Shown one piece after another: positions 16,752-64,000 of a stretch of 64,000 bases of DNA. Where the stretch lies: contig PKWM01000024.1 in assembly GCA_003133245.1 (NCBI GenBank), positions 49,107 through 113,106 of the forward strand, written 5' to 3'. The DNA comes from Rhodoferax sp. GTDB lineage: Bacteria > Pseudomonadota > Gammaproteobacteria > Burkholderiales > Burkholderiaceae_C. The number at the start of each line of letters is the position of its first letter. Positions within the stretch are counted from its first letter, which is position 1. Made by a program: the position numbers and the translations under genes. The notes beneath the pieces were generated by a model that was not told the DNA's origin, did not search any database, and saw nothing but the letters and a program-made list of their open reading frames with translations.

Positions 16752-16776
16752 TTTTTCTCTCCTGAAGTTTCGAACA

Positions 16777-18006: not shown

Positions 18007-18032
18007 AGATGTACCTGTGTTACTTTGGGTCG

Positions 18033-21192: not shown

Positions 21193-21247
21193 ACATGCGC
21201 TCCTTCAGGCACGATGTCGCGCGGCAAGTGATCGAGGTGCCTATTCA

Positions 21248-21308: not shown

Positions 21309-21365
21309 CGGGCACATCGTGGTTCTGCCATTTGATGGGTTAAACGTCAGGCTTCTATTCTTTCT

Positions 21366-21640
21366 TTTTTTGGCCCCACTCTCACCCCCCGCCCTCTCCC
21401 GCCCCGCCGGGCGGGAAAGGGAGCTAACAGCCATATTTGGCCGCGTGTTCAAAGGGAAGAAGTACCCGTTCGATAAGCACGTTGAAAAACTAAATATACG
21501 ATTTTTCTGCCTCAACGCACCGTGGCACGTGTACTTCCTTTGTTTATTTACGTGGCCAAATATGGCTGTTGGCTCCTCTTTCTCGCCCGGCGGGGCGAGA
21601 GAGAGGCGGGGGTGAGAGAGTGGGGCCAAAATGAAAACGG
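21366..21640. repeat. ~290-bp palindromic intergenic element, copy 2 (inverted)
   Basis: The ends TTTTGGCCCCACTCTCAC and GTGAGAGAGTGGGGCCAAAA are inverted repeats, with GC-rich inner palindromes as in copy 1. The interior matches copy 1 in reverse: GTACTTCCTTTGTTTATTTA here pairs with the complement of the left half of copy 1, and AAGTACCCGTTCGATAAGCA with its right half. It occupies the murG-murC gap inside the otherwise compact dcw cluster. No protein is encoded. It could form a very long hairpin in mRNA. Confidence 0.8.
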
Positions 21641-21730
21641 ATATATAACGGTCAACAACTGCGATGCAGTTCGATGCAACAGCCGATGCCGAAAGGGTAT
21701 GCGTACAGTTGCATGGAAAAGAAATGAAGC

Positions 21731-25568: not shown

Positions 25569-25572
25569 GTTT

Positions 25573-41182: not shown

Positions 41183-42427
41183 TCAGACGCTGCCCTGCGG
41201 CCTGGAGACAGGCCCCTCGCCCTGGGGCACAGCGGTGGGCGGCTCATACCAGGCGTCATCCATGCGGTTGATGACACCGTTGCGCTTGAGCGTGGCCGCG
41301 TATTCCTGGCGCAAATAGGGGTCTTCCATCCAGTAAGGAATGGCGGTGCCGCCCTCGTTGACGTCGATCGCGGTGTAATCGTTATGCTTGGCACCGGGCG
41401 CACCTGGGTCGCGCCCCGGGTTGTGCGGCCCGAACCAGGCGGTCAGGCGAAATGGCTCTTCGGCAACGCTGAAATGCTGGTGGTACCAGCGCGCGCCGCC
41501 GGGGGCCGCCGTGACCATGCCGACCGGTTCGTAATCAAGACGACGCACCTCGTCAGCGTGCCCGTTTTGCCACGGCCGCTCGCCCAGGTGCTCCGGCCAG
41601 GAGTAGGTATAGCCCTTGCCCTTCAGGCAGATCAGCACCGCCGCCGAAGTGTGCGCGTGCGCCTTCGAGTAGCGTCCGTTCTCGTGCTGCCCGATCCAGA
41701 AATAGAAGCAGTTGTTGGTCATGAACGGTTCGACACGCCGGTAGCCGATTGAGCGGCGATTGTCCAGCGGCAGCTCGCAATTAACGACATCGGGGATGAA
41801 GTTGGTGCGCCGCATCGCCAGGCCGCGCACCGGGTCGGTCTCGATGTCGTCGCGGGGCTTGAAGAAGTCATCGGCGCCATTGAAGCGATCGCGAAAAACG
41901 AAAGGGTTGTTGAACACCGCATCGACGTTGTTCAACTGGTTGAGCACGTTCGGCGCGGTGTTGCCGGCCAATAGCAGCGCGCCGCCCGAGGTGGCATTGA
42001 CGATCCGGAACCAGGCGTTCATCGGGATCGAGAACATCGACCCCTTCTGCCATTCGAACACGTGTTTCCTGGTGTCGCCCTCCTGCCAGACCTCGGTCGT
42101 TCCGCGCCCCTCGACGACTAGGTAGATCTCCTCGTACATATGCTTTTGCGCATGCAGCGCGCCCATCGGCGGCACCTCGATCACATAACAGCCCCACTTG
42201 GTCTCGGTGCCGTAGAGCTGGATGAAATGGCCCTTGCCACCGGTGCGCTTCCACGGCATCAGCGCGAGGTTTTGCACCTTGCTGATGCCAATGTCGCGGA
42301 ACACCGGGATGCCCTCTGACTCCATGAAGGCGTCATAGGGCGTCGGTTGCTTGCGGAACGCGCCGAAGCCGGCTTTTTTGTTGCCGGCTGGCTCGTGCCA
42401 ATGGATCTCGTCTTTATCGTGTGGCAT
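41183..42427 (-). CDS. Bicupin protein, set A
   Basis: A cytoplasmic two-cupin protein of 414 residues. The first barrel (about 75-170) keeps MGALHAQKHMYEEIYLVVEGRG, but its second motif has lost the histidine (AWFRIVN). The second barrel (about 230-345) keeps SKAHAHTSAAVLICLKGKG and WYHQHFS, so probably only one metal site is complete or fully conserved. The paralogue at 58283 shows the reverse pattern. Size resembles gentisate 1,2-dioxygenase-like bicupins, but the metal motifs differ, so a dioxygenase assignment is not justified. Divergent from SBP2, coupled to the EutA-like gene. Confidence 0.78.
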   Translation of the reverse strand: MPHDKDEIHWHEPAGNKKAGFGAFRKQPTPYDAFMESEGIPVFRDIGISKVQNLALMPWKRTGGKGHFIQLYGTETKWGCYVIEVPPMGALHAQKHMYEEIYLVVEGRGTTEVWQEGDTRKHVFEWQKGSMFSIPMNAWFRIVNATSGGALLLAGNTAPNVLNQLNNVDAVFNNPFVFRDRFNGADDFFKPRDDIETDPVRGLAMRRTNFIPDVVNCELPLDNRRSIGYRRVEPFMTNNCFYFWIGQHENGRYSKAHAHTSAAVLICLKGKGYTYSWPEHLGERPWQNGHADEVRRLDYEPVGMVTAAPGGARWYHQHFSVAEEPFRLTAWFGPHNPGRDPGAPGAKHNDYTAIDVNEGGTAIPYWMEDPYLRQEYAATLKRNGVINRMDDAWYEPPTAVPQGEGPVSRPQGSV

Positions 42428-42462: not shown

Positions 42463-42520
42463 TTCTTTTATGTGGAACATTGTTCTTCTGTTTGGACCAG
42501 TGACAGTTTAACCTTATACT
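42463..42520 (+). promoter_or_regulatory. Operator and promoter in the bicupin/SBP2 divergent region
   Basis: TTCT-TTTATGT-GGAAC followed by ATT-GTTC (42463-42485) precedes TTGGAC (42492-42497) and TATACT (42515-42520) with a 17-bp spacer. This is very similar to the SBP1 promoter. The 185-bp gap also serves the minus-strand bicupin-EutA-hydrolase unit, so one regulator site could control both directions. Confidence 0.65.
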
Positions 42521-42612
42521 TTCAACGAAGTCAATTAAATAACTTCTTGTGTGTCGAACCACTCCACGTGACGGGCGGTTCGTCCGCAAGACCCTACAGC
42601 AGGAGACATCGC

Positions 42613-43688: not shown

Positions 43689-44258
43689 ATGACTCACGAA
43701 ACCCATCACACCCATGCAGCGCCCCCCGCCGACGAGGCGGCCTGGGAGCGCTGGTCGAAGAAGCGCACTTTCGTGCGCGCCCTTGAGGGCACCTACGGCG
43801 AGTTGGTCCACGAATTATTCAGTCAACCCCGGGTCTATCACTCGAAGGACTGGAAGTGGAAGGGCGGTCCGCAGAACTTCGGCAAGAAAATCATCAACCC
43901 GCAGGCGGTCAAGGTGGCGCAGTCGATCGAAACCCACCTCGATGTGTACGCACCCGGCGGCTATGGCCAGAAGCACGGCCACATGAACAGCGCTGTGTTC
44001 TTCGTGCTCAAGGGCAAGGGCCACGATGTGCATGACGGCAAGCGCCATGACTGGGAGGCTGGCGACGCGCTGATCGTCGAGAACGGCTGCGTGCATCAGC
44101 ACTTCAATGACGATCCCAACGACGAGTCGATTGTGCTGATCATGAAAGCCAAGCCCTTGTTTTTGTTCATGCACATGTTGTTTCAGAAGGTGGTGAGCTA
44201 CCCGCCAAAAGACGCGACACCGGGCCATGAACACTACACACCACCAAGCCATTATTAA
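43689..44258 (+). CDS. Single-domain cupin (type I), set A
   Basis: A 189-residue cytoplasmic protein with a His-rich start (MTHETHHTHAAP) and one cupin barrel. Motif 1: YAPGGYGQKHGHMNSAVFFVLKGKG (HxH plus aligned acidic/aliphatic positions); motif 2: VENGCVHQHFN, i.e. H(x)3N. A C-terminal hydrophobic segment KPLFLFMHMLFQKV follows. Its paralogue is 60100-60705 (shared KHGH, CVHQHFN and LFMxMLFQ). Likely a metal-binding enzyme (dioxygenase, isomerase or decarboxylase-like), but the reaction cannot be assigned. Followed by the type II cupin, 12 bp on. Confidence 0.8.
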   Translation: MTHETHHTHAAPPADEAAWERWSKKRTFVRALEGTYGELVHELFSQPRVYHSKDWKWKGGPQNFGKKIINPQAVKVAQSIETHLDVYAPGGYGQKHGHMNSAVFFVLKGKGHDVHDGKRHDWEAGDALIVENGCVHQHFNDDPNDESIVLIMKAKPLFLFMHMLFQKVVSYPPKDATPGHEHYTPPSHY

Positions 44259-44270
44259 GGAGCACGCAAC

Positions 44271-44828
44271 ATGAGCAACATCGTCGACCAACTCGAAAAG
44301 GCACGCGCGCATGCCCAAACCCAAGAGGCTGACTTCTACGCCAAGGCACTAGAAATCTCGCAACAATTTCGCACCGACTACGCGGGTCGGATGAATGTCG
44401 TCAAGGCCAGCCAGATGCCGTTTGAGCGCTCGCCCGACGGACTGATCAAACACATCATCCATGAGGGCATGAACACCAAGGAGTGTTGCCTCGACATCTA
44501 CATGCAGTTCCTGCCAGGCGGCAAGGCCAGCGGCAAGCACCGGCATTTGACGGAGGAGATTTTCTTTGTCGTCGAAGGCAGTGGCTACGACCTTCACTGG
44601 GACGTGCGCTTCGACTGCAAGGATGAAATGGAATTTTCCTGGGACCAGGAGCCCAAGCGCTTCGAATGGAGCCAGGGCGACTTCGTCTATGTCCCACCCT
44701 ACTGTGCACACCAGCACTTCAATGCCGACTCGGCCAACGAGGCGCGCATCGTGGTGGTCAACAGCCGCATCGTCAAACCGATGGGCTTTGATTGGTTCGA
44801 GCAGATCGAACGCGCCGAAGGCTTCTGA
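44271..44828 (+). CDS. Single-domain cupin (type II), set A
   Basis: A 185-residue cupin with RBS AAGGAG. Signature segments shared with 59446-60066: IIHEGMNTKECCLDIYMQF, GGKASGKHRHLTEEIFFVVEG, GYDLH, and VPPYCAHQHFNADS. Metal ligands are predicted as the two histidines of HRH, the Glu of TEE, and the His of HQHFN. The last 112 bp are duplicated, with two substitutions, at 48725-48836, marking the edge of an inserted segment. Last gene of the SBP2-cupin-cupin unit. Confidence 0.82.
   Translation: MSNIVDQLEKARAHAQTQEADFYAKALEISQQFRTDYAGRMNVVKASQMPFERSPDGLIKHIIHEGMNTKECCLDIYMQFLPGGKASGKHRHLTEEIFFVVEGSGYDLHWDVRFDCKDEMEFSWDQEPKRFEWSQGDFVYVPPYCAHQHFNADSANEARIVVVNSRIVKPMGFDWFEQIERAEGF
44717..44828 (+). 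repeat. Cupin-gene 3' end, donor copy of a 112-bp duplication
   Basis: The last 112 bp of the type II cupin gene, from CTTCAATGCCGACTCGG to its TGA, recur at 48725-48836 with two substitutions. Here they are part of an intact gene. Confidence 0.9.
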
Positions 44829-44903: not shown

Positions 44904-45713
44904 GGTTCTGTTGCAATAAGCGTAAACGACAATCGAGCCCTTGCTTGATTTCCGTATAAGTTCGCTCAATAGCGCCTTGCGCAAGGTTCTCGTCAGGTTC
45001 CACTATCCGCTGAAAGTGATGCCCACGTGCGTGCGCTGGTATGAGGCCTACCCGCTGAGTCTGCGCCAGGTCGAGGAAATGATGCAGGAGCGAGGCGTAT
45101 TTGTCGCCCACACAAGGGTGCATCGCTGGGCAATAAAAATGTTGCCGGTGTTGGCAGCAATTTTCCGGAGACGCAAACGACCCATTGGACGGAGTTGGAG
45201 GATGGACGAGACCTACATCAAAGTATCCGGTCAGTGAAAGTACCTTTGCCGGGCTGTTGATCGGACGGGCGATACAGTTGATTTTCTTCTCACTGTCAAG
45301 CGAGACATGGCTGCCCCCGCCGATTTCTGGAGCGCGCCATCAACCTGCATGACTTGCCAGAAAAGGATCACCATCGACAAGAGTGGCGCCAACACGGCCG
45401 CTATTGAAAGCGTTAGGGCCGACGCCTGTGTCGATACCTTGATGCGTCAAAACAAATACCTCAACAACATCGTTGAACAGGACCACCGGGCCGTCAAACG
45501 AATCACCCAACCGATGCTCGGTTTCAACTCGTTTTGGAGCACAAGAATTATCATCGCCGGGATCGAAACCATGCACATGATTCGCAAGGGGCAGTTGGAC
45601 TGCCCCAAAGGATCAACAATGTCCGCAGCAGTCCAGTTCTATGGACTGGCCTTCTGATCAGATGAGCGCCAACGAGCTTCTTCGCCCGCGCCAGTCCTTA
45701 TTGCAACAGAACC
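44904..45713 (+). mobile_element. IS6-family insertion sequence, inactivated
   Basis: An 810-bp element bounded by perfect 17-bp inverted repeats GGTTCTGTTGCAATAAG (44904-44920) and CTTATTGCAACAGAACC (45697-45713), typical IS6 ends. It encodes one DDE transposase that is interrupted. The 8-bp flanks (CGCGCAAG and ACTTTTTT) are not a target duplication, so the element has been involved in a rearrangement or one flank was replaced. Confidence 0.9.
44941..45657 (+). pseudogene. Broken IS6-family transposase
   Basis: Two same-frame ORFs (98 and 116 residues) together make an IS6 transposase. The first carries the N-terminal HTH region (PLSLRQVEEMMQERGV) and the first catalytic Asp in RMDETYIKVSGQ. 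It then stops at a TGA where relatives have Trp (GQWKYLYRAVD); the frame continues KYLCRAVDRTGDTVDFLLTVKRD. A short segment is then shifted (in another frame ERAINLHDLPEK) before ITIDKSGANTAAI and NIVEQDHRAVKR, which carry the second Asp and the Glu. So one nonsense change and a compensating pair of frameshifts. Inactive. Confidence 0.9.
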
Positions 45714-45830: not shown

Positions 45831-47291
45831 TTACAGCTTGACCAAAATGTCGGCGAACTTGGCCGCGACCTTTTGCCTCTGCTCGGGAGTCGCTCTGGCC
45901 ACGGGAGGAAAGTCCTTGATCCTTTCGAACGGACGGCAGGCATCGATCACCGCACGCGAGTTGGTACTCGTGCCCCGCGGAATGCGCGGGTCGAGGGGGC
46001 CGCTCCAGGCCTTGCGGATGACGTCGATGTCTTCGACCGGATCGCAGCGCGTGCTCATTGCCCAGACCACCTGGAAGAGATCGGTGGGATCGATGTCATC
46101 GTCCACCACCACCACGAAACGTCCGAGATAAGCGCCCGACTGGCAGTTGGCCGCCAGCATGCCGGCCTGTTTGGAATGGCCGGGGTAAGCCTGTTTGATG
46201 GAGATGATGTTGAACATGCGCGCGGCGCCCGCTTCGTGACACCAGACACCCTTGACGCCCCCCAGGCCGGCGCGTTCGACTTCATCCCAGATCATGCCGG
46301 CCTTCATCACGCACTTGGAGAAAGAGAAATCGGATGGCGGCGCCAGCGGCGTTGCCATTGTGAGAATGGGATTGTTACGGTAGTACACGCGCTGGATGCG
46401 GACCACCGGCTGGTCGCTCTTGCCTCCTGCGTAGTAGCCAGTAAATTCTCCGAACGGACCTTCCGGCATCGTTTCATCGGGATACATCTCGCCTTCGAGC
46501 ACGATTTCGCTATGCGCCGGCATCGGCAGACCGTGCACTTCGCTTTTCACCACATCGAACGGCAGGCCGCGATGCCCGCCCGAGTAGTCGTACTCGGACA
46601 GGCCGAAGCGCAGTTCATTGCACCCTGCCAGAAATAGCATGGGGTCGTGGCCGCAGGAGATCAGCACCGGGCAAGGCCTGCCTTGCTCGAAATACTTTTC
46701 GCGAATCTGCCGACCGTGCTTGCCGGGAGACATCCACAAGCCCACGCGATTCCTGGTGTGCGCCATCGCGCGGTAGGTTCCGATGTTGATCCAGTCCTGT
46801 TCCGGGTCGCGCATGATGACCAGATCGTCGGTACCGATATAGCGGCCGCCGTCCAGTTCATGCAGGAGCGGAATCGGGAATTTGAAAATATCGACGTCGT
46901 CGTCACGATCGATGTTTTCAAGAATGGGACCCGTCTCGACGACGCGAGGCGGAATCGGCATGTGCTTCTCCATGCGGTCGCGATAGGCCTTGACGACATC
47001 CATCGGCCCTTCGGGTACCGGAAAGCCGAGCGTCAGGGCCAACCGTTTCGACGAGTTGGTGCCGCCGGACAGCAGGCAGTAGCCGGGAGGATAGCCGGGA
47101 ATGTTTTCGAATAACAGGGCGGGGGCGTCACTCTGCTTCGCGCCATTCACGATTTCTGCCAGTGTGCCGACTTCGAGATTCCAGTCGGCGCCGGAAATGC
47201 GCAGCAGTTCGCCGGCACGCTCGGCGCGATCGAGAAGCTCGCGCAGATCCAGGTGGGGCAGGTCGTAGTCGTTCCAGTTCTTGGTCGTCAT
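45831..47291 (-). CDS. UbiD-family prenylated-FMN decarboxylase
   Basis: A 486-residue member of the UbiD (de)carboxylase family, which uses prenylated FMN to (de)carboxylate aromatic or alpha,beta-unsaturated acids. Visible: INIGTYRAMAHTRNRVGLWM, ISCGHDPMLFLAGC, and the catalytic acidic region EGPFGEFTGYYAGG, then VDDDIDPTDLFQVVWAMSTR. The cofactor synthase UbiX is not in the window. It is 8 bp downstream of a Bug-type binding protein on the same strand, and both lie within the segment inserted after the IS6 element. Substrate unknown. Confidence 0.9.
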   Translation of the reverse strand: MTTKNWNDYDLPHLDLRELLDRAERAGELLRISGADWNLEVGTLAEIVNGAKQSDAPALLFENIPGYPPGYCLLSGGTNSSKRLALTLGFPVPEGPMDVVKAYRDRMEKHMPIPPRVVETGPILENIDRDDDVDIFKFPIPLLHELDGGRYIGTDDLVIMRDPEQDWINIGTYRAMAHTRNRVGLWMSPGKHGRQIREKYFEQGRPCPVLISCGHDPMLFLAGCNELRFGLSEYDYSGGHRGLPFDVVKSEVHGLPMPAHSEIVLEGEMYPDETMPEGPFGEFTGYYAGGKSDQPVVRIQRVYYRNNPILTMATPLAPPSDFSFSKCVMKAGMIWDEVERAGLGGVKGVWCHEAGAARMFNIISIKQAYPGHSKQAGMLAANCQSGAYLGRFVVVVDDDIDPTDLFQVVWAMSTRCDPVEDIDVIRKAWSGPLDPRIPRGTSTNSRAVIDACRPFERIKDFPPVARATPEQRQKVAAKFADILVKL

Positions 47292-48850: not shown

Positions 48851-49378
48851 TCACCAGGGAATAAAGGCACCGAGCGCGCCGGCGGCGAAAATCAGCAGCA
48901 CCGCAGGAATCCGCGTCAGCGTCAACAATGCGACCGTGGCAACGATGATCGCTACGCCCTTCCAGACCCCGGGCGCTTCGCGCACGAGCAGAAAGCAGGT
49001 GGAGGTCATCAGCCCGATCGCGATCGGGCCGAGGCCTTGCTGCATCACCCGCAACGCCCGTTCGAACTGCGCCCGTCGGCCCAGCCTGGACACCACGAAC
49101 GGAAAGATCAGCGCCGGCAAGGACAAGCCCAAGGTGGTCGCCAACGCACCCTGTACCCCGGCGATCTGCCAGCCCATGACGGTGACAAACATGATGTTGG
49201 GGCCGGGTGCCGATTGGGCCAGGGCGATGGAGTTGACAAAATCCGTATGAGTGAGGTAGCCATGCTGGTCAACCACGTAGCGGTGCATGTCCGAGGCCAG
49301 CGCCATCGCCCCGCCGGTGGCGAACACCGAGAGCGACAGGAAGTGCAGGAAAAGCGCGAGCAGGTCCGTCCTGCTCAT
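48851..49378 (-). CDS. CHR (chromate-type) transporter, second half
   Basis: A 175-residue membrane protein, one of two half-size CHR-family proteins that together make a transporter. The start at 49378 overlaps the upstream half gene by 4 bp (ATGA). About six hydrophobic segments, with the domain signature FATGGAMALASDMHRYVVDQHG and ALAQSAPGPNIMFVTVMGWQIAG. Full-length ChrA has two such halves fused. Chromate efflux is known for some members, but many CHR pairs have other anion substrates; here the genes follow a EutA-like gene, so chromate should not be assumed. Confidence 0.85.
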   Translation of the reverse strand: MSRTDLLALFLHFLSLSVFATGGAMALASDMHRYVVDQHGYLTHTDFVNSIALAQSAPGPNIMFVTVMGWQIAGVQGALATTLGLSLPALIFPFVVSRLGRRAQFERALRVMQQGLGPIAIGLMTSTCFLLVREAPGVWKGVAIIVATVALLTLTRIPAVLLIFAAGALGAFIPW

Positions 49379-49944
49379 TGGGGCTGCCTCCGCCAAGCCA
49401 GCCAGACCGACAACACACCCAGCGTTAACATCACCGTGCTGACCGGCAAGTGGCCCAGACCGACAGCCATAAAGCTGAGCACCGCCACGCCGATACCGAT
49501 GCGTTGGCCGCGCAGCGTGCGGGCCATGCGCGCCGCGGTTGTCACAATCAGGCCGATGCTGGCTGCCCCCATGCCGTGCAGCGCGCCCTGAACCTGCGGC
49601 ACATGCTGGAACTGCTGAAACAGCGCGGCGACGCCGATAATCAGCAGACTGGGCAGCAGCAAAAAGCCGGCCAGGGCGGCCGCTGCCCCTCGCACCCCGA
49701 GGAAGCGGTCGCCCAGCAGCACGCAAAACGAGATTCCAGTCGGGCCAGGCAACACCTGGCTCACCGCGTATAGCCCGAGAAACTCCTTCGGACTGAGCCA
49801 GCGCTTATCGCGCACCACGGTACGCTCGACGAAGGCCAGCGCACCGCCGAAACTCTGCATCGAGATCCAGGTGAAGGCCAGAAACAGCTCGCCAGCCGAG
49901 CGCGGCGGCGGGCCCGTTTGGACCTCCGGCGCCTCATCAGCCAT
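49375..49944 (-). CDS. CHR (chromate-type) transporter, first half
   Basis: A 189-residue half-size CHR protein. Starting at MADEAPEVQ (ATG at 49944, with GGAGTGG upstream) fits the family; the track ORF begins further inside the EutA-like gene. Signature FTWISMQSFGGALAFVERTVV and AVSQVLPGPTGISFCVLLG, then several transmembrane helices. It overlaps the 3' end of the histidine-rich EutA-like gene by 8 bp and the second CHR half by 4 bp, so the three proteins are translationally coupled. Confidence 0.85.
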   Translation of the reverse strand: MADEAPEVQTGPPPRSAGELFLAFTWISMQSFGGALAFVERTVVRDKRWLSPKEFLGLYAVSQVLPGPTGISFCVLLGDRFLGVRGAAAALAGFLLLPSLLIIGVAALFQQFQHVPQVQGALHGMGAASIGLIVTTAARMARTLRGQRIGIGVAVLSFMAVGLGHLPVSTVMLTLGVLSVWLAWRRQPQ

Positions 49945-51694
49945 GTAAGGCGCCACTCCCATGACTATGGCCGTGTTCGTGTTCGTGTTCGTGGCCGTGC
50001 TCGTGCAGCGGCTCGTCGCCATGGCGATGCCATTCGCTCATATCGGACTTGCCGTGCGAACGCGGGTCTTCGCTGAACACCAGTGATTTAATGGTCACCG
50101 GCACCGTCAGCGAAGGCATGCGGATGCGTCCCATGTCAATGAAATCAAAACCCCACAGCGTGATACCATCGATTACCAGTACCTCGCTACTCACGCGCGG
50201 GTCGTCCTTGATCAGGTGGCCCAGCGTCAGCGCAATGTCGCCGTCAACCACCACATAGATCGGCCGGCCCGACTGCAATGTGCGCGGGATTGCGCCCAGC
50301 AAGCCAGTAGCCAGCGCAGTCAACCGATCAAAGGTTGGCGGCCCGCTCCAGCGCAACGACAGCGCGTTGTCCTGCTCACCCTCGATCAAATCATGGCGCA
50401 GGAAGGAACGCTGTAGCGCCTGCGTCACCTCGGCCGGATCAATGGTATTGTCCAAAGCCAGCGCCAGCGGCACCACCTGCAGGTTCTTGCACGGCAGCAG
50501 TACACCCGGCCTGGAGACGAAGGTGGTGTTGCCGCTGAGTTGCACGCTGTACTCAGAAGCACCGAGCACAGTGGCGCGCAAACACTCGCCGGGCGGCAGC
50601 AGCGTCCAGGTCAGCGCGCCCCGGTCGAGTCGGGCCCGGATCGCTTCACCGAACAGCTTTCCGAGATCGCCGAAATCGCGCGGCTCGCGGCCATAGACGT
50701 ATTCGCCGACGCCACCCGAGAACATGATGCCGCCGAGCTCTCCCAGCGGCGGCAACGGGTCGGTCAGCAACAGGTTGTTCAAGTCATCCTCTGTGTATTG
50801 CTGCTTGAGCACGCGAATCAGCGCGTCGGCCATGGTCTGCGCCACATGCGCCAACTCGTGCCGGCTCACAGCGCTCCCGAGCTGCCAGTCGAAGCCAGCG
50901 CGCAAGGCATGGCCGCGCCCGGCCGGGTCAAGACGGCTGATGTGGCCACTGTCATCCACCACCAGCAGACGCCCGCCCAGGTGAACCGCTGCCGTCGCCC
51001 GCAGCTCGCCATTTTCAACCAGACCGAGCTTGGTCGTCCCGCCGCCGATGTCAATATTGAGGATGCGGTTCGATGCGTCGAACGAACGCCGCGCGGCACC
51101 TGAGCCGAAGACGGCCAGCATGCACTCCATGTGGTGCCCGGCCGTGGCGCAGACAAACTCGCCACCCTGCTCGGCCAGCACCGCCGCAATCGCCTGACCG
51201 TTTTCACGGCGCAGCGCCTCGCCGGTCAGGATCACCGCGCCAGCATCAACGCTGTCGGCCTGCACGCCAGCGGCGGTGTAGGCGCGTTCGATGATTTCGC
51301 CCAGCGCACGGGCATCGATCAGAGTGTCGCTCTGGTACGGTGTCAGCGTGTTCGGCGACTGGTAGATCGGCTCGCGCGAGACCACCACGTAACGGGTTGA
51401 GAGCTGGTCGGCGATGCGCTGCAGGTGAATCTTTGAGAACACCACCTGCGTACCGGCTGAGCCGATATCGATGCCCACGCTGTGCAAGATGACGTTGTCC
51501 TGCACCCACAGCGCATGGTCAACCCCGTTCGGATCGCCGCCGAAGTCGTCGTGATCGTGGTCGCCGCCCTGGCCATGGGCGTGCTCGTGCCCAAAATTCG
51601 CGCCAAACTGATGATCCTCCAGCGTGTGCGACGAACGATCCGGCGTCACAGTCAGTGGCTCCGGCAGGCTTGGATCAGATAGGGTGGAACTCAT
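49937..51694 (-). CDS. EutA-like ASKHA protein with histidine-rich ends, set B
   Basis: 585 residues from the ATG at 51694 (a TTG at 51718 is an alternative start). The core matches the EutA family: SVGIDIGSAGTQVVFSKIHL (phosphate 1), LILTGEALRRENGQAI-like segment, LNIDIGGGTTKLGLVENG (phosphate 2), and IMFSGGVGEYVYGREP. Unlike its paralogue at 39643 it has a His/Asp-rich N-terminus (GHEHAHGQGGDHDHDD) and a His-rich tail (HEHGHEHEHEHGHSHG), resembling metal-storage stretches of HypB or UreE. It may deliver or sense a metal for a partner enzyme. It is followed, with overlap, by the CHR pair. Confidence 0.8.
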   Translation of the reverse strand: MSSTLSDPSLPEPLTVTPDRSSHTLEDHQFGANFGHEHAHGQGGDHDHDDFGGDPNGVDHALWVQDNVILHSVGIDIGSAGTQVVFSKIHLQRIADQLSTRYVVVSREPIYQSPNTLTPYQSDTLIDARALGEIIERAYTAAGVQADSVDAGAVILTGEALRRENGQAIAAVLAEQGGEFVCATAGHHMECMLAVFGSGAARRSFDASNRILNIDIGGGTTKLGLVENGELRATAAVHLGGRLLVVDDSGHISRLDPAGRGHALRAGFDWQLGSAVSRHELAHVAQTMADALIRVLKQQYTEDDLNNLLLTDPLPPLGELGGIMFSGGVGEYVYGREPRDFGDLGKLFGEAIRARLDRGALTWTLLPPGECLRATVLGASEYSVQLSGNTTFVSRPGVLLPCKNLQVVPLALALDNTIDPAEVTQALQRSFLRHDLIEGEQDNALSLRWSGPPTFDRLTALATGLLGAIPRTLQSGRPIYVVVDGDIALTLGHLIKDDPRVSSEVLVIDGITLWGFDFIDMGRIRMPSLTVPVTIKSLVFSEDPRSHGKSDMSEWHRHGDEPLHEHGHEHEHEHGHSHGSGALHG

Positions 51695-51714: not shown

Positions 51715-52479
51715 TCAATGGTGCTTGTAGCCCATGCGGGCCGAGACCGCGTCGGCGGTGGCTATGACCTGCAAAGACAGATGATGCAATTTTCTCTTGG
51801 TAAGTCGCTGTACCGGACCGGCCAGACCCACGGCGGCAACAACCGTTCCGCTTATATTGCGGATCGGCGCTGCCACACCGCGCATGCCACCCTCGCTTTC
51901 TTCATCGTCGATCGCATAGCCCAGGCGGCGCACCTCATCGAATAACTCCAGCAGCGCCTTTGGATCGGTAACCGTTTTAGGCGTGCGCGCCTCCAGCGGT
52001 TCGGCCAAGACCGCCTGCACTTGTTGTGCCGAGCCGAAGGCCAACAGCACACGGCCTTCGCTGGTGCAAAAAGCCGGCTTGCGTGCGCCCAGGTAAGAAC
52101 GGGCACCGATGGTTTGTGCCCCTTCCACGTTATACATATAGACGATGGAGCCTTCAGACAATATTGCCAGGTGCACCGATTCTTGTGTCAGATCCCGCAA
52201 GGCTCTGAGCAACAGCATGCCCAGATTGGAGACGTCCATGCGCCGGCGCACCAATACGCCGAGTTTGAACAGGGAAAGTCCCAGCCGGTAGCGCCCGTTC
52301 TCCTGATTTTGTTCGAGAAAGCCTTCGGATGCCAGCGTCACCGCAAGACGATGCACGGTGCTTTTGGCCAGACCGAGCCGCTTGGCCATGCCGCTGATGC
52401 CGAGTTCAGCCTCGTCTTCGGAGAAGGTTTTGAGCAGCAACAACGCCGAAGCAACCGAAGACAAGCGGGCAGATGACAT
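51715..52479 (-). CDS. IclR-family transcriptional regulator
   Basis: A 254-residue regulator: N-terminal winged helix (LSSVASALLLLKTFSEDEAELGISGMAKRLGLAKSTVHRLAVTL) and a C-terminal effector domain (about 85-250; CTSEGRVLLAFG, GVAAPIRNISGTVVAAVGLAG). The only DNA-binding regulator in the accessory region. Its own upstream region carries the same TTCC-N7-GGAAC motif as the SBP1, SBP2 and porin promoters, so it is the best candidate regulator, probably autoregulated. The stop lies 21 bp before the EutA-like start. Confidence 0.92.
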   Translation of the reverse strand: MSSARLSSVASALLLLKTFSEDEAELGISGMAKRLGLAKSTVHRLAVTLASEGFLEQNQENGRYRLGLSLFKLGVLVRRRMDVSNLGMLLLRALRDLTQESVHLAILSEGSIVYMYNVEGAQTIGARSYLGARKPAFCTSEGRVLLAFGSAQQVQAVLAEPLEARTPKTVTDPKALLELFDEVRRLGYAIDDEESEGGMRGVAAPIRNISGTVVAAVGLAGPVQRLTKRKLHHLSLQVIATADAVSARMGYKHH

Positions 52480-54364: not shown

Positions 54365-55402
54365 TCAACGGCCGCCGCGCTTGACAATCATGTCGTCGAA
54401 CAACTTGGACCATTTCTTGTCTTCGTCGAGCGTGCGGATCGGGTCGGTGATCATGATCTTCACACCCTTCAGGGGCGACCCCACCTTGGTGTTGGTGGGG
54501 ACATAGTCCAGTGAAGTAAAAATCGGTTGCGCGTCGGTCAGCATGTACTCGTGGAACAGCAGTGCAGCGGCCGGATGCGGCGCCTTGCGCGCCACCCCCA
54601 CGGCATTGGAGCGGGCCACCGCCGGCTCCAGCGCAAACCAGTCAATCGGCGCGCCCTTGGCTTTGGCTTGCGCCGGCATGTAGTTGTAAACCGTCAGTGC
54701 CATCGGCACTTCGCCCGACACCACCATATTGGTCAGCAGCGAATGACCTTTGCGTGTCGAGACACCGTTGATGGCGACCAGGTCCCGAAAGTACTTCAAG
54801 CCCTTTTCGCCACCGCCGTTGATATCGACCACCGCAGCAAACCAGTCCTGGTTCTTGGCCTCAATGCCAAGCATGCCCTTCCATTTTGGATCGAGCAGGT
54901 CTTTGTAGGTCTTGGGTAAGTCCTGCTTCTTGATCAGCTTGGTGTTGTAGGCTTGTACCCAGACCGACAAAATTGTGGCCACCCACTCGTGATGCGCCGG
55001 GACCGAACCTGGCAGCAGGTCACGATAGACCGGAGAATCCACGCGCTGCAGTATTTTTTCGCGCGACAGCGCTTCCATCTCAGGGGTGCCGATATGCACG
55101 ACATCGACATCATTGCGGTTCGCTGCGGCTTCAGCCAGTGTGCGCTGCAACACCTTGTCGGTACCGGCGCGCCAGACGACCACCTTGATGCCGTATTTGG
55201 CCTCAAAAGGTTTCACCAGCGGTGGCACGTCTGGCTCGGCAATCGTCGTGTAGAGCGTCAGCGTACCTTCTTTTTTGGCCGTTGCAATGATTTTGTCCAG
55301 GCGGTCAGCCCCTGTATAAGTGGCCAGGGAAGTCTGTGCGAGCGCTGCGCCCGCGACTGCCAGTGCGACCGCAGCGACGGCAATTTGCAGGGATTTCTTC
55401 AT
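54365..55402 (-). CDS. Fbp-type ABC transporter substrate-binding protein (SBP3)
   Basis: A periplasmic binding protein of 345 residues. Signal peptide IAVAAVALAVAGAALAQTS. Mature part: YTGADRLDKIIATAKKEGTLTLYTT, FEAKYGIKVVVWRAGTDKVLQRTLAEA, SVPAHHEW, YNTKLIKKQDLPKTYKDLLDPKWKG. Counterpart of SBP1 (33711) in the other gene set. Preceded by SBP4 (21-bp gap), so two different binding proteins are made from one transcript. Confidence 0.86.
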   Translation of the reverse strand: MKKSLQIAVAAVALAVAGAALAQTSLATYTGADRLDKIIATAKKEGTLTLYTTIAEPDVPPLVKPFEAKYGIKVVVWRAGTDKVLQRTLAEAAANRNDVDVVHIGTPEMEALSREKILQRVDSPVYRDLLPGSVPAHHEWVATILSVWVQAYNTKLIKKQDLPKTYKDLLDPKWKGMLGIEAKNQDWFAAVVDINGGGEKGLKYFRDLVAINGVSTRKGHSLLTNMVVSGEVPMALTVYNYMPAQAKAKGAPIDWFALEPAVARSNAVGVARKAPHPAAALLFHEYMLTDAQPIFTSLDYVPTNTKVGSPLKGVKIMITDPIRTLDEDKKWSKLFDDMIVKRGGR

Positions 55403-58282: not shown

Positions 58283-59422
58283 TTATGCTCCGCGCAACAC
58301 TTTTACGGGCGGCAGTTCGGCAAGCTCGGCCTGGTAGGCCTCGTCCATGTGGGGCTTGAGGCCAAGCTTGGCCAGCGCCTCGGCGAAGGTTTGGCGCACC
58401 TGAGGTGATTCGTCGGCGTAATCGACCTGATGCCCGCCGACGCGCCGACTGACCCACGCCTTGGGCACACCCTGGGCGTTGCGGATCGCCACACCCTCGG
58501 CCTTGAACGCCAGGTAGCGCGCCGGTGTGGTGCCGGTGTTGAAGTGTTGGTGAAACCACATATTGGGCGGCACGATCATGGTGCCCTCTTTCCAGTCAAA
58601 GCGACGCGGCTCCTCACCCTCCGGCCCCATCAGGCTGTAACCCACGCCGCTCAAGACGATCACGTGGGCGCCCGGGCCGTGCGCATGCGCCCTTTTGTAG
58701 GTGCCCACCGGGAACTGGGAGATGTGGCTGTTCATGCTGCCCTTGGCCATGCTGAAGCGGATATGCCCGCCGCCGGCACCGCGCTCCTTGGCGGGGATGA
58801 GCGGCAGGTTGATCGCGTCGGCCACGAAATTGGTGTCGAGCAACAGGCCTTTTTGCTCGCCTTTGTTGACAAAGTAGTCGCTTTCGCCGGCGAATCGGCC
58901 TTTGAAGTCGTAGGCGGTGTTGAAAATGAAATCCGTGTCGCCGAAAGCATTGATGATGTCCGGCCCGTTGGTCACTGAAACAAAGCGGACGGCGTCTTTG
59001 CCTGAGCCGTTGAAATGCTGGTGCCAGGTGTTGAGCGGGATGGCGAAGATCGCGCCCGCCTTCCATTCAAAACTGACCTTGACGCCCGCGTCGTTCCAGA
59101 CGCTGGTGGAGCCGCGCCCGTCGAGGATATAAACCATCTCCTCGAACAATTGGCGCTGCGGCGCAAGCTGCTTGCCCGGCGGGATCTCGCAAACGTAGCA
59201 GTCGTTCGAAGTGCGCGAAGCGTCGTGATTGAGGTAAACACCGCTGCCACCGCGACGCGCCCAGGGCTTGAGCGCGATGTCGTGCAGGTTGGGCACGTAC
59301 ATGGCATCGACGATGTCCAGCCCCTCTGTGGCAATCCAGCGTGCGTAGGACGTATCTTTTTCGGTTTCGAATTTTTTAGCCGTGGTATCTGAGACCTGAG
59401 CATTCTGACTACTGTTGTTCAT
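58283..59422 (-). CDS. Bicupin protein, set B
   Basis: A 379-residue two-cupin protein, paralogue of 41183-42427. Here the first barrel has lost the HxH pair (GKQLAPQRQLFEEMVYILDGRG) but keeps TWHQHFNGS. The second barrel is complete: YKRAHAHGPGAHVIVLSGVG and MWFHQHFNTG. So, as in set A, the barrels are unequal, but by different losses. RBS AAGGA; 23 bp after the type II cupin gene. Enzymatic reaction unknown. Confidence 0.78.
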   Translation of the reverse strand: MNNSSQNAQVSDTTAKKFETEKDTSYARWIATEGLDIVDAMYVPNLHDIALKPWARRGGSGVYLNHDASRTSNDCYVCEIPPGKQLAPQRQLFEEMVYILDGRGSTSVWNDAGVKVSFEWKAGAIFAIPLNTWHQHFNGSGKDAVRFVSVTNGPDIINAFGDTDFIFNTAYDFKGRFAGESDYFVNKGEQKGLLLDTNFVADAINLPLIPAKERGAGGGHIRFSMAKGSMNSHISQFPVGTYKRAHAHGPGAHVIVLSGVGYSLMGPEGEEPRRFDWKEGTMIVPPNMWFHQHFNTGTTPARYLAFKAEGVAIRNAQGVPKAWVSRRVGGHQVDYADESPQVRQTFAEALAKLGLKPHMDEAYQAELAELPPVKVLRGA

Positions 59423-59445: not shown

Positions 59446-60066
59446 TTAGGCGAGTTGGGTTATCTTGTTGGGGGAGCGCAGGTAATTGGCCACGGCTGCG
59501 GCGCTCAGCACTTGGCCGGGTTGAAATTCGGGTGCATTTTCAAGTTGTTCCAGATCGTTAAGGCCACTGGCCTTGAAAATACGGTTGATCGCCGAAATCA
59601 GCCGCACCGGCTGGTCTGCTTTGGCGTTAAAGTGCTGGTGGATCGTATTGGGCGGAATGTAGATCACGTCGCCCGCCTCCCACTCGTAACGTTTTATTTC
59701 CGCCTGCGCCGTCCAGTGGTAGGTGTCGGTAATTTCAACATCGCAGTCCTGGTGCAGGTCGTAACCCTGGCCTTCAAGAACATACAGGCATTCCTCCGCC
59801 AGGTGCCGGTGCTTGCCCGAGCGGCTGCCCGGCGGAATGATTTGCATGTAAGCGTCCACTGTCTCCATGCGAGTATTCATGCCTTCGTTGAGCAGGTGCT
59901 TGAGCAGGCCCTGGCGGGCCATCTCCCAGGGCATATCCTGCGGCAACACCAACTTCTTGCGCTTGGCGTTGCGCGCCGGCGCGCTGCTTGCATCGTCGAG
60001 CAGCGCCTGATACAGATCCTGATGCGCGTCGCCCTGCAACCACGCTTTCGATTCACTCCATGCCAT
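59446..60066 (-). CDS. Single-domain cupin (type II), set B
   Basis: A 206-residue cupin paralogous to 44271-44828: LLKHLLNEGMNTRMETVDAY, SGKHRHLAEECLYVLEGQGYDLH, YIPPNTIHQHFNAKAD. Predicted metal ligands: two His of HRH, Glu of AEE, His of HQHFN. It has a C-terminal extension of about 35 residues (LEQLENAPEFQPGQVLSAAA). RBS GGGAGA. Confidence 0.8.
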   Translation of the reverse strand: MAWSESKAWLQGDAHQDLYQALLDDASSAPARNAKRKKLVLPQDMPWEMARQGLLKHLLNEGMNTRMETVDAYMQIIPPGSRSGKHRHLAEECLYVLEGQGYDLHQDCDVEITDTYHWTAQAEIKRYEWEAGDVIYIPPNTIHQHFNAKADQPVRLISAINRIFKASGLNDLEQLENAPEFQPGQVLSAAAVANYLRSPNKITQLA

Positions 60067-60099: not shown

Positions 60100-60705
60100 T
60101 CAGTCGGCGTGGTTGTAGTTGCTTTCGCCTTCACGGACCTGAAAGCCTTCGCCACCGGACGCGGCAACACTGGGCCGTGGCTCGACCTGTTGCTGGAACA
60201 GCATGTTCATGAACAGATACATCGGCTTGGACTTGATAACCAGAGCGCGCGCCGGTTTGCTGTTGCTGGCATTGAAATGCTGGTGCACGCAGTTGTTGTG
60301 AACAATCGCAATGTCGCCGGCCTTCCAGTCGTAACGCACGCCGTCGTGGATCTCATAGCCTTCGCCGTCAAGGATGTAGAACGCAGCCTCATTGACGTGT
60401 CCGTGCTTCTGCGAGCGCCCGCCCGGGCCGTACTCTTCGAGGTGCAGGTGGAAGGTTTGGGTAATCCCATCCTTGGGCTCGACATAGTGCCGACTGAAGG
60501 CCTGCGGGCCATCGATAAACTTGATCTGCGAGCCCTTGCGCACCCTCGGCATCGCGCGTAACCGGTCGAGTTCTTCCTTCAGGCTGTACTGGCCCTGGAT
60601 GGCGCGCACAAAGATGCGGTCTTTCTTGCTGTGATAGTGCGACGCGTTGCCGATAGCAGCGCTCGGCGCAGGATTGGCGCCGCCCTTGTTGTTTTCAGTT
60701 TCCAT
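60100..60705 (-). CDS. Single-domain cupin (type I), set B
   Basis: A 201-residue cupin paralogous to 43689-44258: EYGPGGRSQKHGHVNEAAFYILDGEGYEIHDG and HNNCVHQHFNASN, then SKPMYLFMNMLFQQQ. RBS GGAGCAG. Its start overlaps the 3' end of the dehydrogenase gene by 11 bp. As in set A, type I precedes type II in transcription order. Confidence 0.8.
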   Translation of the reverse strand: METENNKGGANPAPSAAIGNASHYHSKKDRIFVRAIQGQYSLKEELDRLRAMPRVRKGSQIKFIDGPQAFSRHYVEPKDGITQTFHLHLEEYGPGGRSQKHGHVNEAAFYILDGEGYEIHDGVRYDWKAGDIAIVHNNCVHQHFNASNSKPARALVIKSKPMYLFMNMLFQQQVEPRPSVAASGGEGFQVREGESNYNHAD

Positions 60706-61507
60706 ACTGCTCCAGTTTGTAGCGATTGGGTTTGAGGGCGCGACAGAGCTCGCGGTTGAGGCCGGCTTGCGGCAAGGCGATGCCGGACTCGGCGGCCATT
60801 TTAGCGACGATAGCCATGTCGTCTTCGGCCCAGGCCATGGTTTGCGTGCCCCATTTCTCCAGCGGCCCGTTGGCGCAACTCGAAGTCAGCAGCGCCTTGC
60901 GCAGCGCCTCGATGTCGGCGCCATAGTGCTGCGCCAGCGCCAGACCTTCATGGTCAGCCACCAGACAGGCCCACAGGATCAGGTTGTTGACGGCCTTGGC
61001 GACCTGCGCCGTACCGATACCCCCGGTGTGCACCACATCGGCCGAGTAGGCGCGCAACACCGGCGTCAGCTGCGCGACCACGTCGGCGCTGCCGCCGACG
61101 AAGGACAGCAAAGTGCCGTTGTCGGCCGCTTCGCCGCCACGGCAAACTGTCGAGTCAACCACGTACACGCCGCGCGGTTCGCAACGCGCCGCCAGTTCCC
61201 GGGCGGTGTCAGGGTGGATGGTGCTGAGAATTGCGATGATGCTGCCCGGACGCGCCTGACTGAGCGGCCCCTCGGTGTCGAACAGCGCGCGCACCTCGGC
61301 GTCGAAGCCAACGCAGACCAGGATCACCTCACAGACCGCAGCCAGCGCTTGCGGGCCAGCCGCCCAGTACGCGCCTTGCCCGGTGACAAACGCCTGCTTG
61401 GCCGGATTCAAATCGCAGGCCTGCGTGGTAAAGTCTTGACGCACCAGATGGCCAATGATGGGTGCGCCCATGCGCCCCACACCAATGATGCCGACGGTTG
61501 GTTTCAT
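60695..61507 (-). CDS. Beta-hydroxyacid dehydrogenase-family oxidoreductase
   Basis: About 270 residues from the ATG at 61507 (MKPTVGIIGVGRMGAPIIGHLV), which places the NAD(P)-binding GxGxMG loop correctly; the track ORF extends into the upstream gene. Substrate-binding DSTVCRGGEAADNGTLLSFVGG and the catalytic Lys region GTAQVAKAVNNLILW are family hallmarks (3-hydroxyisobutyrate, tartronate-semialdehyde and related reductases). Positioned between the ThDP enzyme and the cupins, where set A has an aldehyde dehydrogenase instead. Substrate unknown. Confidence 0.88.
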   Translation of the reverse strand: MKPTVGIIGVGRMGAPIIGHLVRQDFTTQACDLNPAKQAFVTGQGAYWAAGPQALAAVCEVILVCVGFDAEVRALFDTEGPLSQARPGSIIAILSTIHPDTARELAARCEPRGVYVVDSTVCRGGEAADNGTLLSFVGGSADVVAQLTPVLRAYSADVVHTGGIGTAQVAKAVNNLILWACLVADHEGLALAQHYGADIEALRKALLTSSCANGPLEKWGTQTMAWAEDDMAIVAKMAAESGIALPQAGLNRELCRALKPNRYKLEQYGN

Positions 61508-61521
61508 GGATGGAACGTCTT

Positions 61522-63354
61522 TCAGCGCTTTTGGGTAATCGTGTCGAGCAGCGCCGGACGACCGGCCTTGACCTCGGCGATGGCGCGCTTCAATGCCGCC
61601 GCCACGTCGCCCGGCTGATCGATCGGACCTTCGGCGTACCAGCCCATCGAGCGTGCCAGGGTGGCAAAGTCGGGTGGCGGGCCGTCCAGGTCCATGCCGA
61701 TGTAAGCACGCTCCACCGGCGTTCCGCGCAGCTTGGCCATTCGAATCTGGTGTTCCCAGTCGTTGAAATAGGCGCGGTTGTTGTACATCACGACCAGCAT
61801 CGGGATGCGGTGTTTGGCCGCCACCCACAAGGCCCCGGCATCGAACATCAGATCGCCGTCGGGCTGGATGTCAACCACCAGCCGACCTTGACCGCGGTGC
61901 GCCAGCGCCACCCCCAGCGAAATGCCAAACTGGGTGGCGGTACCCAGCGATTTGCCAGCGTGACGGTAGGGCTTGTCGAAGTTCCATAGCTTGCGCGTCC
62001 ATTCCTCCAGCGTGCCCGCAGTCAGCACCCAGTCTTCGTCTTTGATGGCAGCCCACACTTCACTGGCCAGACGTGGCAGTGTGATCGGGCTGGCATCCCA
62101 GTCAACCTTCGCCTCGAGCGCCCACTGCGCGCGCAAGTCTGTGTGTTTGCGGGCGGTGGCGGCGCTGCGCTTGGCGGCCCGGCCAACAAAGGTTTCATCC
62201 TTGCGGGCGCGCTGCTTGAGCAAAGCCGTCAGCGCCGGAATGGCAACCGTGCTGTCGGCGACGATGCGCTGGTCAGCATAAAGCAGACGCTGGTAGTCCA
62301 TCGCCCAGGCCGAGATGTTCAGATCGCCAAAGCCGATGTCAATCCATTGGCAGCCCTTGGGCACCAGGCTCACCAGTTCTCGCGTCGTGCTGGTCAGCGC
62401 CGTGGTGGGCCGCTCCCAGTCGCGCACATCCAGGCAAAGCACCACGTCGGCGTCGCGGAAGAGGTCTTTCGACATGCTCAGGTTCAGCGGGTGCTGGCCC
62501 GGGAAGCTCAAACGCATGTTCAGGTCGTAAACCGGCGCACCCAGGGTTTCAGCCAGCTTCACCAGCGCCTCGAAACCCTTCGGGTCGCGGCCCACATACT
62601 CGGTCAGGATGACCGGCCGCTTGGCCGCCACCAGCGTGTCGGCCGCCTTGGCCAGCGCTGCCGGATCAGGTGCGATGGGGGCTGGCACCGTCTGGAAGGT
62701 CACCGGCGGCAGCGGCACCGGATGCTCAAGCTTTTTCTCTTGCAGCCAGGCGTCGTAACAAATATAAACCGGGCCGCGCGGCTCGGTCATCATCACCGAA
62801 TAGGCGCGCGCAAAGGCCTCTGGCACACCCTCCACGGTGGTGGGCTGGTAGTCCCACTTGGTGTATTCGCGCACCGCCGCACCCTGCGACTGCGCCGAGT
62901 GGATCCAGTCGATCCGGGGGCGACGCTTGGTTTCGTCCATCGGGCCGGTGGCACCCACGATGAAGATCGGCGCACGATCGATATAGGCGTAATAGACCGC
63001 CATGTTGGCGTGCAGCAAGCCGACCAGGTTGTGCAGGATCGCCACCATCGGCTTGCCACTGGCCTTGCCGTAGCCGTGCGCGATCTGGACTGCCGTTTCT
63101 TCATGCTGGCACAGCATCATGGTCGGCGTATTGCCGCCGTAATTGACAATCGAGTCGTGCAGCCCGCGGTAGCTGGCGCCGGGGTTCAGCGCCGCGTACG
63201 GAAGGTGGTAACGGTGCAGCAGGTCAACAATGACGTCGGCACCCCAACGCTCCTTGGGCTTGACTGCGGCGGGTGTCTTCTTGGGCTTGGTTGCGTGAGC
63301 GCTGTCTTCAGCGTCGGCGCTGACCAGCGCCGTTTTGACCGGGCGGCGCATCAT
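61522..63354 (-). CDS. ThDP-dependent enzyme, set B
   Basis: 610 residues from the ATG at 63354, overlapping the ABC ATPase stop by 4 bp (a second Met follows at once). Paralogue of 36349-38118: the same GADVIVDLLHRYHLPYAALNPGASYRGLHDS opening and CQHEETAVQIAHGYGKASGKP catalytic-Glu region. Its PP-domain motif reads QPDGDLMFDAGALW...NN, with Pro in place of the first Gly of GDG while the metal-binding Asp is kept. A charged N-terminal extension of ~45 residues is absent in set A. Decarboxylase or carboligase is likely. Confidence 0.83.
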   Translation of the reverse strand: MMRRPVKTALVSADAEDSAHATKPKKTPAAVKPKERWGADVIVDLLHRYHLPYAALNPGASYRGLHDSIVNYGGNTPTMMLCQHEETAVQIAHGYGKASGKPMVAILHNLVGLLHANMAVYYAYIDRAPIFIVGATGPMDETKRRPRIDWIHSAQSQGAAVREYTKWDYQPTTVEGVPEAFARAYSVMMTEPRGPVYICYDAWLQEKKLEHPVPLPPVTFQTVPAPIAPDPAALAKAADTLVAAKRPVILTEYVGRDPKGFEALVKLAETLGAPVYDLNMRLSFPGQHPLNLSMSKDLFRDADVVLCLDVRDWERPTTALTSTTRELVSLVPKGCQWIDIGFGDLNISAWAMDYQRLLYADQRIVADSTVAIPALTALLKQRARKDETFVGRAAKRSAATARKHTDLRAQWALEAKVDWDASPITLPRLASEVWAAIKDEDWVLTAGTLEEWTRKLWNFDKPYRHAGKSLGTATQFGISLGVALAHRGQGRLVVDIQPDGDLMFDAGALWVAAKHRIPMLVVMYNNRAYFNDWEHQIRMAKLRGTPVERAYIGMDLDGPPPDFATLARSMGWYAEGPIDQPGDVAAALKRAIAEVKAGRPALLDTITQKR

Positions 63355-64000
63355 GCTGCGCTCCGCAATTCTTCGGCGGCTGGCATCGCCACGCTCTTGT
63401 CGGGATGGATATAGACCCATAACTGTTGACCGACCGGCGTGAGCACCGACGGATGAGCGCGCGCCAGCAGCGTTCGGTTGCCCAACTTGATGCGGAAGTC
63501 CAGCGCTTCGCCCAGAAAGACCTTTAGCTCGACCTTCGCGGGCCAGACGTTGACGCTCGTATCGGCAGGCTCGACTTGCGTGAGCTCAACATCCTCGGGT
63601 CGGATCGACAGCACCACTTTGTCGCCCACGCGTACCGCTTCCACCGAGTAGGAATGCAGCGCTCCGATCTCGGTGTCGATAACGTAGAAGCCGTCCTCGG
63701 CGCTCTTGGCGATCACCGTGCCTTCAACAAAATTGGTGGTTCCGACGAAGTCGGCGACGAACTTGTTCTGCGGCCGCTCGTAGATTTCGCGAGGCGACCC
63801 GATTTGCTGGATCCGGCCCTGGTTCATGACGGCAACCTGGTGCGACAGTGCCAGCGCCTCGCTCTGATCGTGCGTGACATAGACCGTGGTGATCTTCAGC
63901 TCGCGTTGCAGCCGCTTCAACTCAAAACGCATCAACTCGCGCAGCTTGGCGTCCAGGTTGGACAGCGGCTCGTCGAGTAGCAGCAACTTGGGCTCCATCA
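63351..64000 (-). CDS. ABC transporter ATP-binding protein (FbpC/PotA-like), 5' end outside window
   Basis: The C-terminal ~216 residues of an importer ATPase; the Walker A part lies beyond the edge. Walker B and D-loop (LLLLDEPLSNLDAKLRELMRFEL), H-loop VYVTHDQSEALALS, then the regulatory TOBE domain (about 80-205; VVLSIRPEDVELTQ). This class pairs with the Fbp-type binding proteins found here, so it is the probable energiser for some or all of SBP1-SBP4; permease genes are not in the window. Coupled to the ThDP gene (ATGA). Confidence 0.9.
   Translation of the reverse strand, partial: MEPKLLLLDEPLSNLDAKLRELMRFELKRLQRELKITTVYVTHDQSEALALSHQVAVMNQGRIQQIGSPREIYERPQNKFVADFVGTTNFVEGTVIAKSAEDGFYVIDTEIGALHSYSVEAVRVGDKVVLSIRPEDVELTQVEPADTSVNVWPAKVELKVFLGEALDFRIKLGNRTLLARAHPSVLTPVGQQLWVYIHPDKSVAMPAAEELRSAA

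Follow-up and report, generated by a model that had tools for sequence, protein, structure and literature searches.

EutA-like ATPases encoded in genomes without EutB are strongly paired with bicupins, proteins of two cupin domains: members of three clades of these ATPases, referred to here as A, B and C, share a gene cluster with, or directly adjoin, a bicupin of their own clade, except where the contig ends first. The window, a 64,000-nucleotide stretch of contig PKWM01000024.1 of a Rhodoferax sp. genome, holds a clade A and a clade B ATPase, each with its bicupin, and the clade B protein has ends rich in histidine. The two ATPases of the window, together with the terminal segments of the clade B protein, are these:

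49937..51694, minus strand: EutA-family ATPase of clade B, with His-rich ends, 585 aa (Pfam EutA 364 bits; tree support 100/100)
51545..51592, minus strand: its His/Asp-rich front segment GHEHAHGQGGDHDHDD, residues 35-50, kept in 11/11 clade B proteins
49958..50005, minus strand: its His-rich tail HEHGHEHEHEHGHSHG, residues 564-579; the composition is kept, the exact sequence and length vary
39643..~41172, minus strand: EutA-family ATPase of clade A, with no His tails (Pfam EutA 390 bits)

The reading frame at 49937-51694 runs from an ATG at 51694 to a stop at 49937, bearing out the strand and coordinates of the preliminary description and its claim of a EutA-like ATPase with His-rich ends. 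The Pfam EutA model (PF06277) matches the protein over model positions 3-474 of 475 at 364 bits against a cut-off of 27, and DIGGGTTKLG, FSGGVGEYVYG and both terminal segments are present exactly as first quoted. The likeness to EutA takes in the whole ASKHA core and all three ATP-binding motifs, whose residues (D76, D215, G217-T220 and S326-G328) are invariant in an alignment of 27 relatives. AlphaFold2 models this core with confidence, and the structural matches of the model are other ASKHA proteins, with Ppx/GppA top-ranked and PilM, HgdC (1hux), EutJ and DnaK also present. By sequence no solved EutA structure was matched, the sole PDB match (7ahw) covering residues 529-577 only, a span that takes in the last part of the core together with the His tail. 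A Pfam search at E 0.001 returned EutA and one ASKHA family below its cut-off, and no G3E P-loop GTPase domain.

Three full EutA-like genes are present in the genome from which the window comes (2.94 Mb, 98.56% complete): the pair in the window itself and one at C22:1395-2804, and they represent clades A, B and C, one each. In a maximum-likelihood tree each clade is supported at 99-100%, and their split from the EutA proteins of eutB-bearing genomes at 94/91; identity of the ATPase to the eutB-linked EutA proteins sampled is ~30%. The phosphate-2 motif in the alignment reads GGGT[TS]K in clades A, B and C and GGGTSN or GGGTTN in eutB-linked EutA. The ATPases described here differ from EutA in this motif, in their bicupin partner, in the absence of EutB from the genome and, in clade B, in their His-rich ends. 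The original statement that no eutBC lies nearby can be extended, for EutB (PF06751), to the whole genome, in which it was not found; an EutBC partner elsewhere in the genome, which would have counted against the reading offered with it, is rejected on this search for EutB. EutB was likewise not found in the 11 other genomes with clade A, B or C members (G143, G180, G293, G620, G423, G513, G584 and G1060-G1063), and it was found in 9/9 of the checked genomes with an EutA not belonging to these clades. Proteins of the clade A/B/C type, including both copies in Phyllobacterium zundukense, bear the public label 'ethanolamine ammonia-lyase reactivating factor', which by this evidence misleads for the clades without eutB.

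The cupin genes of the window fall into two groups:

41183..42427, minus strand: bicupin A, paired with the clade A ATPase, which it adjoins in the clade A loci examined
43689..44258, plus strand: single-domain cupin A1 (Cupin_2), absent from some clade A loci
44271..44828, plus strand: single-domain cupin A2 (Cupin_2), absent from some clade A loci
58283..59422, minus strand: bicupin B, a two-domain cupin and presumed client of the His-rich ATPase, occurring where clade B EutA occurs
59446..60066, minus strand: single-domain cupin B1 (Cupin_2), HRHLAEE ... HQHFN, a candidate 3His/1Glu site
60100..60705, minus strand: single-domain cupin B2 (Cupin_2), HGH ... HQHFN, a candidate 3His site

Bicupin A and the clade A ATPase are separated by 10 bp, the junction sequence placing a probable GTG start of the ATPase 10 bp past the bicupin stop, and the clade B ATPase shares a cluster with bicupin B; the third ATPase, on contig C22, adjoins a third bicupin (L047:225-1310). 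Elsewhere clade A occurs with bicupin A in, for example, L006, L050, L052, L053, L055, L056, L058, L102 and rhizobial plasmids, and clade C with bicupin C in L007, L103, L046, L152 and L153. In L049, L054, L057 and L059 clade B is accompanied by bicupin B together with two single-domain cupins, and in the first of these loci (genome G143) the ATPase and all three cupins are consecutive genes. Bicupin A is 78% identical to the bicupin adjoining EutA1 of Phyllobacterium. When the bicupin and EutA clade content of twelve genomes was compared, it matched as A+B+C in the window genome (G000), as A+B in G293, G620, G423, G513, G1061 and G1063, as B+C in G1060 and G1062, and as A in G180; G143 matches for A+B and has one extra, distant bicupin with no adjoining ATPase, and the content of G584 is unreadable, the contig ending inside the cupin cluster. 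The extra bicupin of G143 (L104:8275-9354), 41% identical to bicupin B, has Rieske and ThDP genes close by, and the stretch read around it contains no EutA-like gene; it offers a natural test of whether some bicupins need no ATPase.

The 300 genomes of the order and 401 of the family in which EutA had been sought were also scanned with a profile built from nine bicupins. Bicupins were found in 4/4 genomes of the order set with eutB-less EutA (G000, G143, G180 and G293, the two lists being identical) against 0/296 others (p=3e-9), and in the family set both genes are shared by G000, G423, G513 and G620, with the ATPase only in G584 and the bicupin only in G636 (p=2e-8), p-values that assume independent genomes, which these are not entirely, because the loci come from few lineages. 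Both G584 and G636 are ~60%-complete MAGs in which the locus lies at a contig edge. No bicupin was found in the genomes of these two sets whose EutA is EutB-linked. Among 72,556 plasmid records four contain bicupins, two each, and the same four contain eutB-less EutA-like genes, again two each; as these records are from Alphaproteobacteria, the pairing crosses classes. Co-occurrence and adjacency together make it probable that the bicupin is the client of the clade A/B/C ATPase. Single-domain cupins were considered as the universal partner and rejected, being absent from several clade A loci.

One complete HxH...HQH set is present in the bicupins, in the second domain, the first having lost its HxH. 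Residues H246, H248, H291 and H293 of the window's bicupin B are invariant in 13-15 bicupins, as is Q292, and the second domain is accordingly regarded, on its sequence, as an intact candidate 3-His metal site. Two cupin domains and this putative 3-His site are features shared with the gentisate/salicylate 1,2-dioxygenases, from which bicupin B differs in its lost first-domain HxH and in giving only a weak, local match (23.8 bits) to gentisate 1,2-dioxygenase 3bu7; in a fold search the predicted structure of the bicupin matches two-domain cupins in general. Of the single-domain cupins, B1 is kept beside bicupin B across loci and B2 matches 3bu7 at E=3e-9. No ATPase helper is known for bicupins of the gentisate/salicylate 1,2-dioxygenase type, and no cupin is known to need an ATP-driven activator. 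Nickel cupins do exist, the quercetinase of Streptomyces taking Ni in preference to Co, Fe and Mn (PMC4416304).

Ends rich in His characterise clade B and are not a product of chance. Residues 9-55 and 547-585 of the window ATPase have pLDDT < 50 in the AlphaFold2 model, from which these ends are predicted to be disordered arms, and 12 His lie within the last 45 residues. In a set of one clade B protein from each of 11 genomes (the window, L005-L008, L049, L051, L054, L057, L059 and L060), the front segment has 7-9 His and the tail 6-24 His over 27-72 residues in 11/11 proteins; clade A tails have 0-1 His, in agreement with the earlier remark that the paralogue at 39643-~41172 lacks them. A D-H-D-H-D motif in the front segment is kept as sequence across the two deepest branches of clade B, whereas the tail keeps its composition and not its sequence. 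The front of clade C proteins is shorter and acidic/His (DLDHEHED in Phyllobacterium, DLEFDHEHEL in L007). All 11 clade B proteins thus have a putative metal-binding His-rich stretch as in HypB, UreG and COG0523, and the UreE tail HGHHHAHHDHHAHSH closely resembles that of the window ATPase. Nickel binds to the tails of both UreE and SlyD, and urease can mature without the tail of UreE (PMC7055735); His stretches have been gained by COG0523 proteins and by UreG, in the latter mostly where UreE is missing (PMC2770081). With UreG, HypB and COG0523, and with UreE and SlyD, the clade B protein would share the character of a nucleotide-driven accessory with an optional His-rich end, encoded beside genes for metal uptake or its regulation; it differs from UreG, HypB and COG0523 in being an ASKHA ATPase of unrelated fold, with no P-loop GTPase and with a cupin as presumed client. 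Clades A and C, which are without such tails, pair with bicupins equally tightly, and the tails are therefore not needed for any action that the ATPase may have on the cupin.

Genes for metal handling recur beside clade B. In six genomes the clade B ATPase has a NicO-family (Ni/Co) transporter no more than ~2 kb away, in three arrangements: inside a shared cluster in G1060-G1063, on the upstream side in G293, and immediately downstream in G620, there with NikR (183.8 bits; cut-off 83) and a COG0523 GTPase after it. The G620 transporter (L054:8020-8886) has a His-rich loop of its own, NDHHHHDA. NicO, NikR and COG0523 also neighbour each other in G423 and G513, but on another contig, where they adjoin genes for Rieske oxygenases and dehydrogenases whose G620 counterparts lie next to the clade B cluster; a COG0523 GTPase lies ~4 kb from the ATPase in G293 and on the same contig in G1061 and G1062. 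NikR answers to nickel, and NicO proteins can carry cobalt as well. The neighbouring transporter and NikR lead us to favour nickel as the metal, with cobalt, zinc, manganese and iron also possible. Several findings temper this preference. No NicO was found anywhere in the window genome, in which the metal would need another way in. The P-loop identified UreG in G620, G423, G513, G1061 and G1063, and size alone makes it probable in G180; it was not recognised in G000, G143, G293, G1060 or G1062 (weak unclassified matches in G000 and G1060), so that in 6/11 genomes searched part of the nickel handling may serve urease. In Phyllobacterium, NikR and a NixA-type transporter adjoin the clade A ATPase EutA1; three Sinorhizobium relatives do not have these two genes at that place, and neither NicO nor NikR adjoins the Sinorhizobium loci with clades A and C. 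This leaves the nickel case resting on clade B, and the Phyllobacterium arrangement may be a coincidence. A TerC/YjbE-type metal transporter (L046:41687-42328) follows EutA2 of Phyllobacterium and its LysR gene. Because the clusters hold several metal enzymes, Rieske oxygenases and other cupins among them, the neighbourhood alone cannot name the metal's client.

The remaining genes around the His-rich ATPase in the window include the following:

51715..52479, minus strand: IclR-family regulator, upstream of the His-rich ATPase (Pfam)
48851..50022, minus strand: two chromate-transporter (ChrA) halves, immediately downstream of the ATPase (PF02417 for both)
61522..63420, minus strand: ThDP-dependent enzyme of the same catabolic cluster (TPP_enzyme N/M/C)
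60695..61828, minus strand: 3-hydroxyisobutyrate-dehydrogenase-like oxidoreductase (NAD_binding_2)
33711-34775, 42472-43665, 54365-55402 and 55424-56482: ABC solute-binding proteins

The IclR gene is syntenic in L005-L008, L054, L057, L059 and L060. In L005-L008 NicO lies between the clade B ATPase and ChrA, joined in L005-L007 by a class II aldolase, and both are absent from this place in the window: relative to L005 and L006 the window is missing ~2.1 kb just upstream of the ATPase (a 2Fe-2S reductase and a solute-binding protein gene) and, immediately on its other side, the ~1.65 kb that hold the class II aldolase and NicO, with the ATPase left whole between IclR and the ChrA halves. That the ATPase was kept though its NicO neighbour is gone weakens a strict nickel-only reading. 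The window's ThDP enzyme is 60% identical to that of the Phyllobacterium cluster; ThDP enzymes, named at first as possible partners, are not constant neighbours across the loci and were rejected in that role. The four ABC solute-binding proteins are mutually 38-57% identical and spread across both cupin clusters. A UbiD-family decarboxylase at 45831-47291 passes only the general UbiD subfamily cut-off, its nearest NCBIfam models being phenylphosphate carboxylase beta and hydroxyarylic acid decarboxylase subunit C, and two short ORFs at 44941-45657, between the cupins and UbiD, resemble transposase pieces by eye. Genes for cell division and peptidoglycan synthesis (FtsZ, Mur ligases and a PBP transpeptidase) stand in a row at 15492-31487, which places the catabolic region on the chromosome, adjoining the dcw cluster.

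On balance we lean towards the view that the clade A/B/C ATPase is an ATP-driven accessory factor dedicated to its cognate bicupin, whose metal it most likely loads or resets, and we hold with much the same modest preference that a metal is its cargo or target, as the His arms and the neighbouring genes suggest. We infer the contact between ATPase and bicupin, the metal as the thing handled, the direction of its transfer and its identity, and on this footing the ATPase would bind an apo-bicupin or one that is mis-metallated or oxidised; its ATP cycle would open the bicupin, by analogy with cobalamin exchange by EutA, and allow a divalent metal to be loaded or replaced; and in clade B the disordered His-rich ends may hold or hand over metal as a local store, a role also put forward for the tails of UreE, SlyD and HypB. 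Diol and glycerol dehydratase reactivases, DdrA and GdrA, serve B12 enzymes, and their ATP-driven release of a spent metal cofactor may provide a working model, with no B12 enzyme in view in the present case. In EutA, the use of ATP lets damaged cobalamin leave its enzyme (PMC5821096). The proposal made at the outset, of an ATP-driven metal-loading or reactivating chaperone for a metal enzyme, perhaps the cupins, is supported in part: the bicupin pairing, the missing EutB, the NicO, NikR and COG0523 neighbours (NicO beside clade B in six genomes) and the UreE-like tails favour it, and the lack of NicO here and the equally paired tail-less clades A and C weaken it.

An ATPase that transfers no metal, but acts on the conformation of the bicupin or on a site that is oxidised or inhibited by product, the His ends serving only to store or buffer metal, seems to us unlikely: the pairing fits it equally well, clades A and C manage without long His tails and the UreE tail can be dispensed with in urease maturation (PMC7055735), but the Ni/Co transporter, NikR and COG0523 beside clade B suggest that metal is handled. 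Still less likely is that the ATPase is a metabolic enzyme, such as an ASKHA small-molecule kinase or phosphatase, acting in an aromatic-acid pathway to make or consume the substrate of the bicupin. ASKHA folds include kinases as well as the Ppx/GppA phosphatases that give the best structural matches, and the clusters contain genes for Rieske oxygenases, an aldolase, ThDP enzymes and dehydrogenases; however, the closest sequence family over the whole length is EutA, and a kinase would need neither His-rich ends nor a one-to-one pairing of its three clades with bicupin clades. A true reactivase of an unrecognised B12-dependent enzyme, with the Ni/Co transporter bringing cobalt, would accord with PF06277 membership and with cobalt transport by NicO, and is nonetheless improbable, given that the genomes lack EutB, that neither a cobalamin or NiCo riboswitch nor any other Rfam match was found in the window and six related loci scanned, that the ATPase reaches none of the NCBIfam EutA equivalog cut-offs (best 296 against 598 bits), that a cupin is the constant partner, and that NikR is nickel-responsive. 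A HgdC/BcrA-type activase, driving electron transfer with ATP, is hinted at by the structural match to HgdC and by a weak BadF/BcrA Pfam signal (19.8 bits, below the cut-off). It is very improbable and was rejected, since the aligned family has no invariant Cys that could act as a conserved ligand of a bridging Fe-S cluster.

Literature searches, which covered few subscription papers so that absence proves little, returned no paper joining EutA with a cupin and a ThDP enzyme, nothing on EutA with histidine-rich ends, and no ASKHA protein as a metallochaperone, the one ASKHA match concerning polyphosphate and copper. Judged by their titles, the papers matching EutA and cupin deal with the canonical eut operon, with ectoine or compatible solutes, or with a genome annotation.

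An EutA-like gene accompanied by a bicupin in a genome without eutB should accordingly be re-annotated as something other than a eut gene. It may also be, although we advance this tentatively, that these proteins represent the first ASKHA metal insertase or reactivase, a relative of the B12 reactivases re-purposed for a (nickel) centre of cupins, with His stores in one branch. Should the preferred reading hold, in which an accessory factor loads or resets the metal of its bicupin, the range of a chaperone family known from B12 enzymes would extend to non-haem metal enzymes, it would follow that an ATP-driven activator can be dedicated to cupins, and the metal used by these uncharacterised cupins would be open to test.
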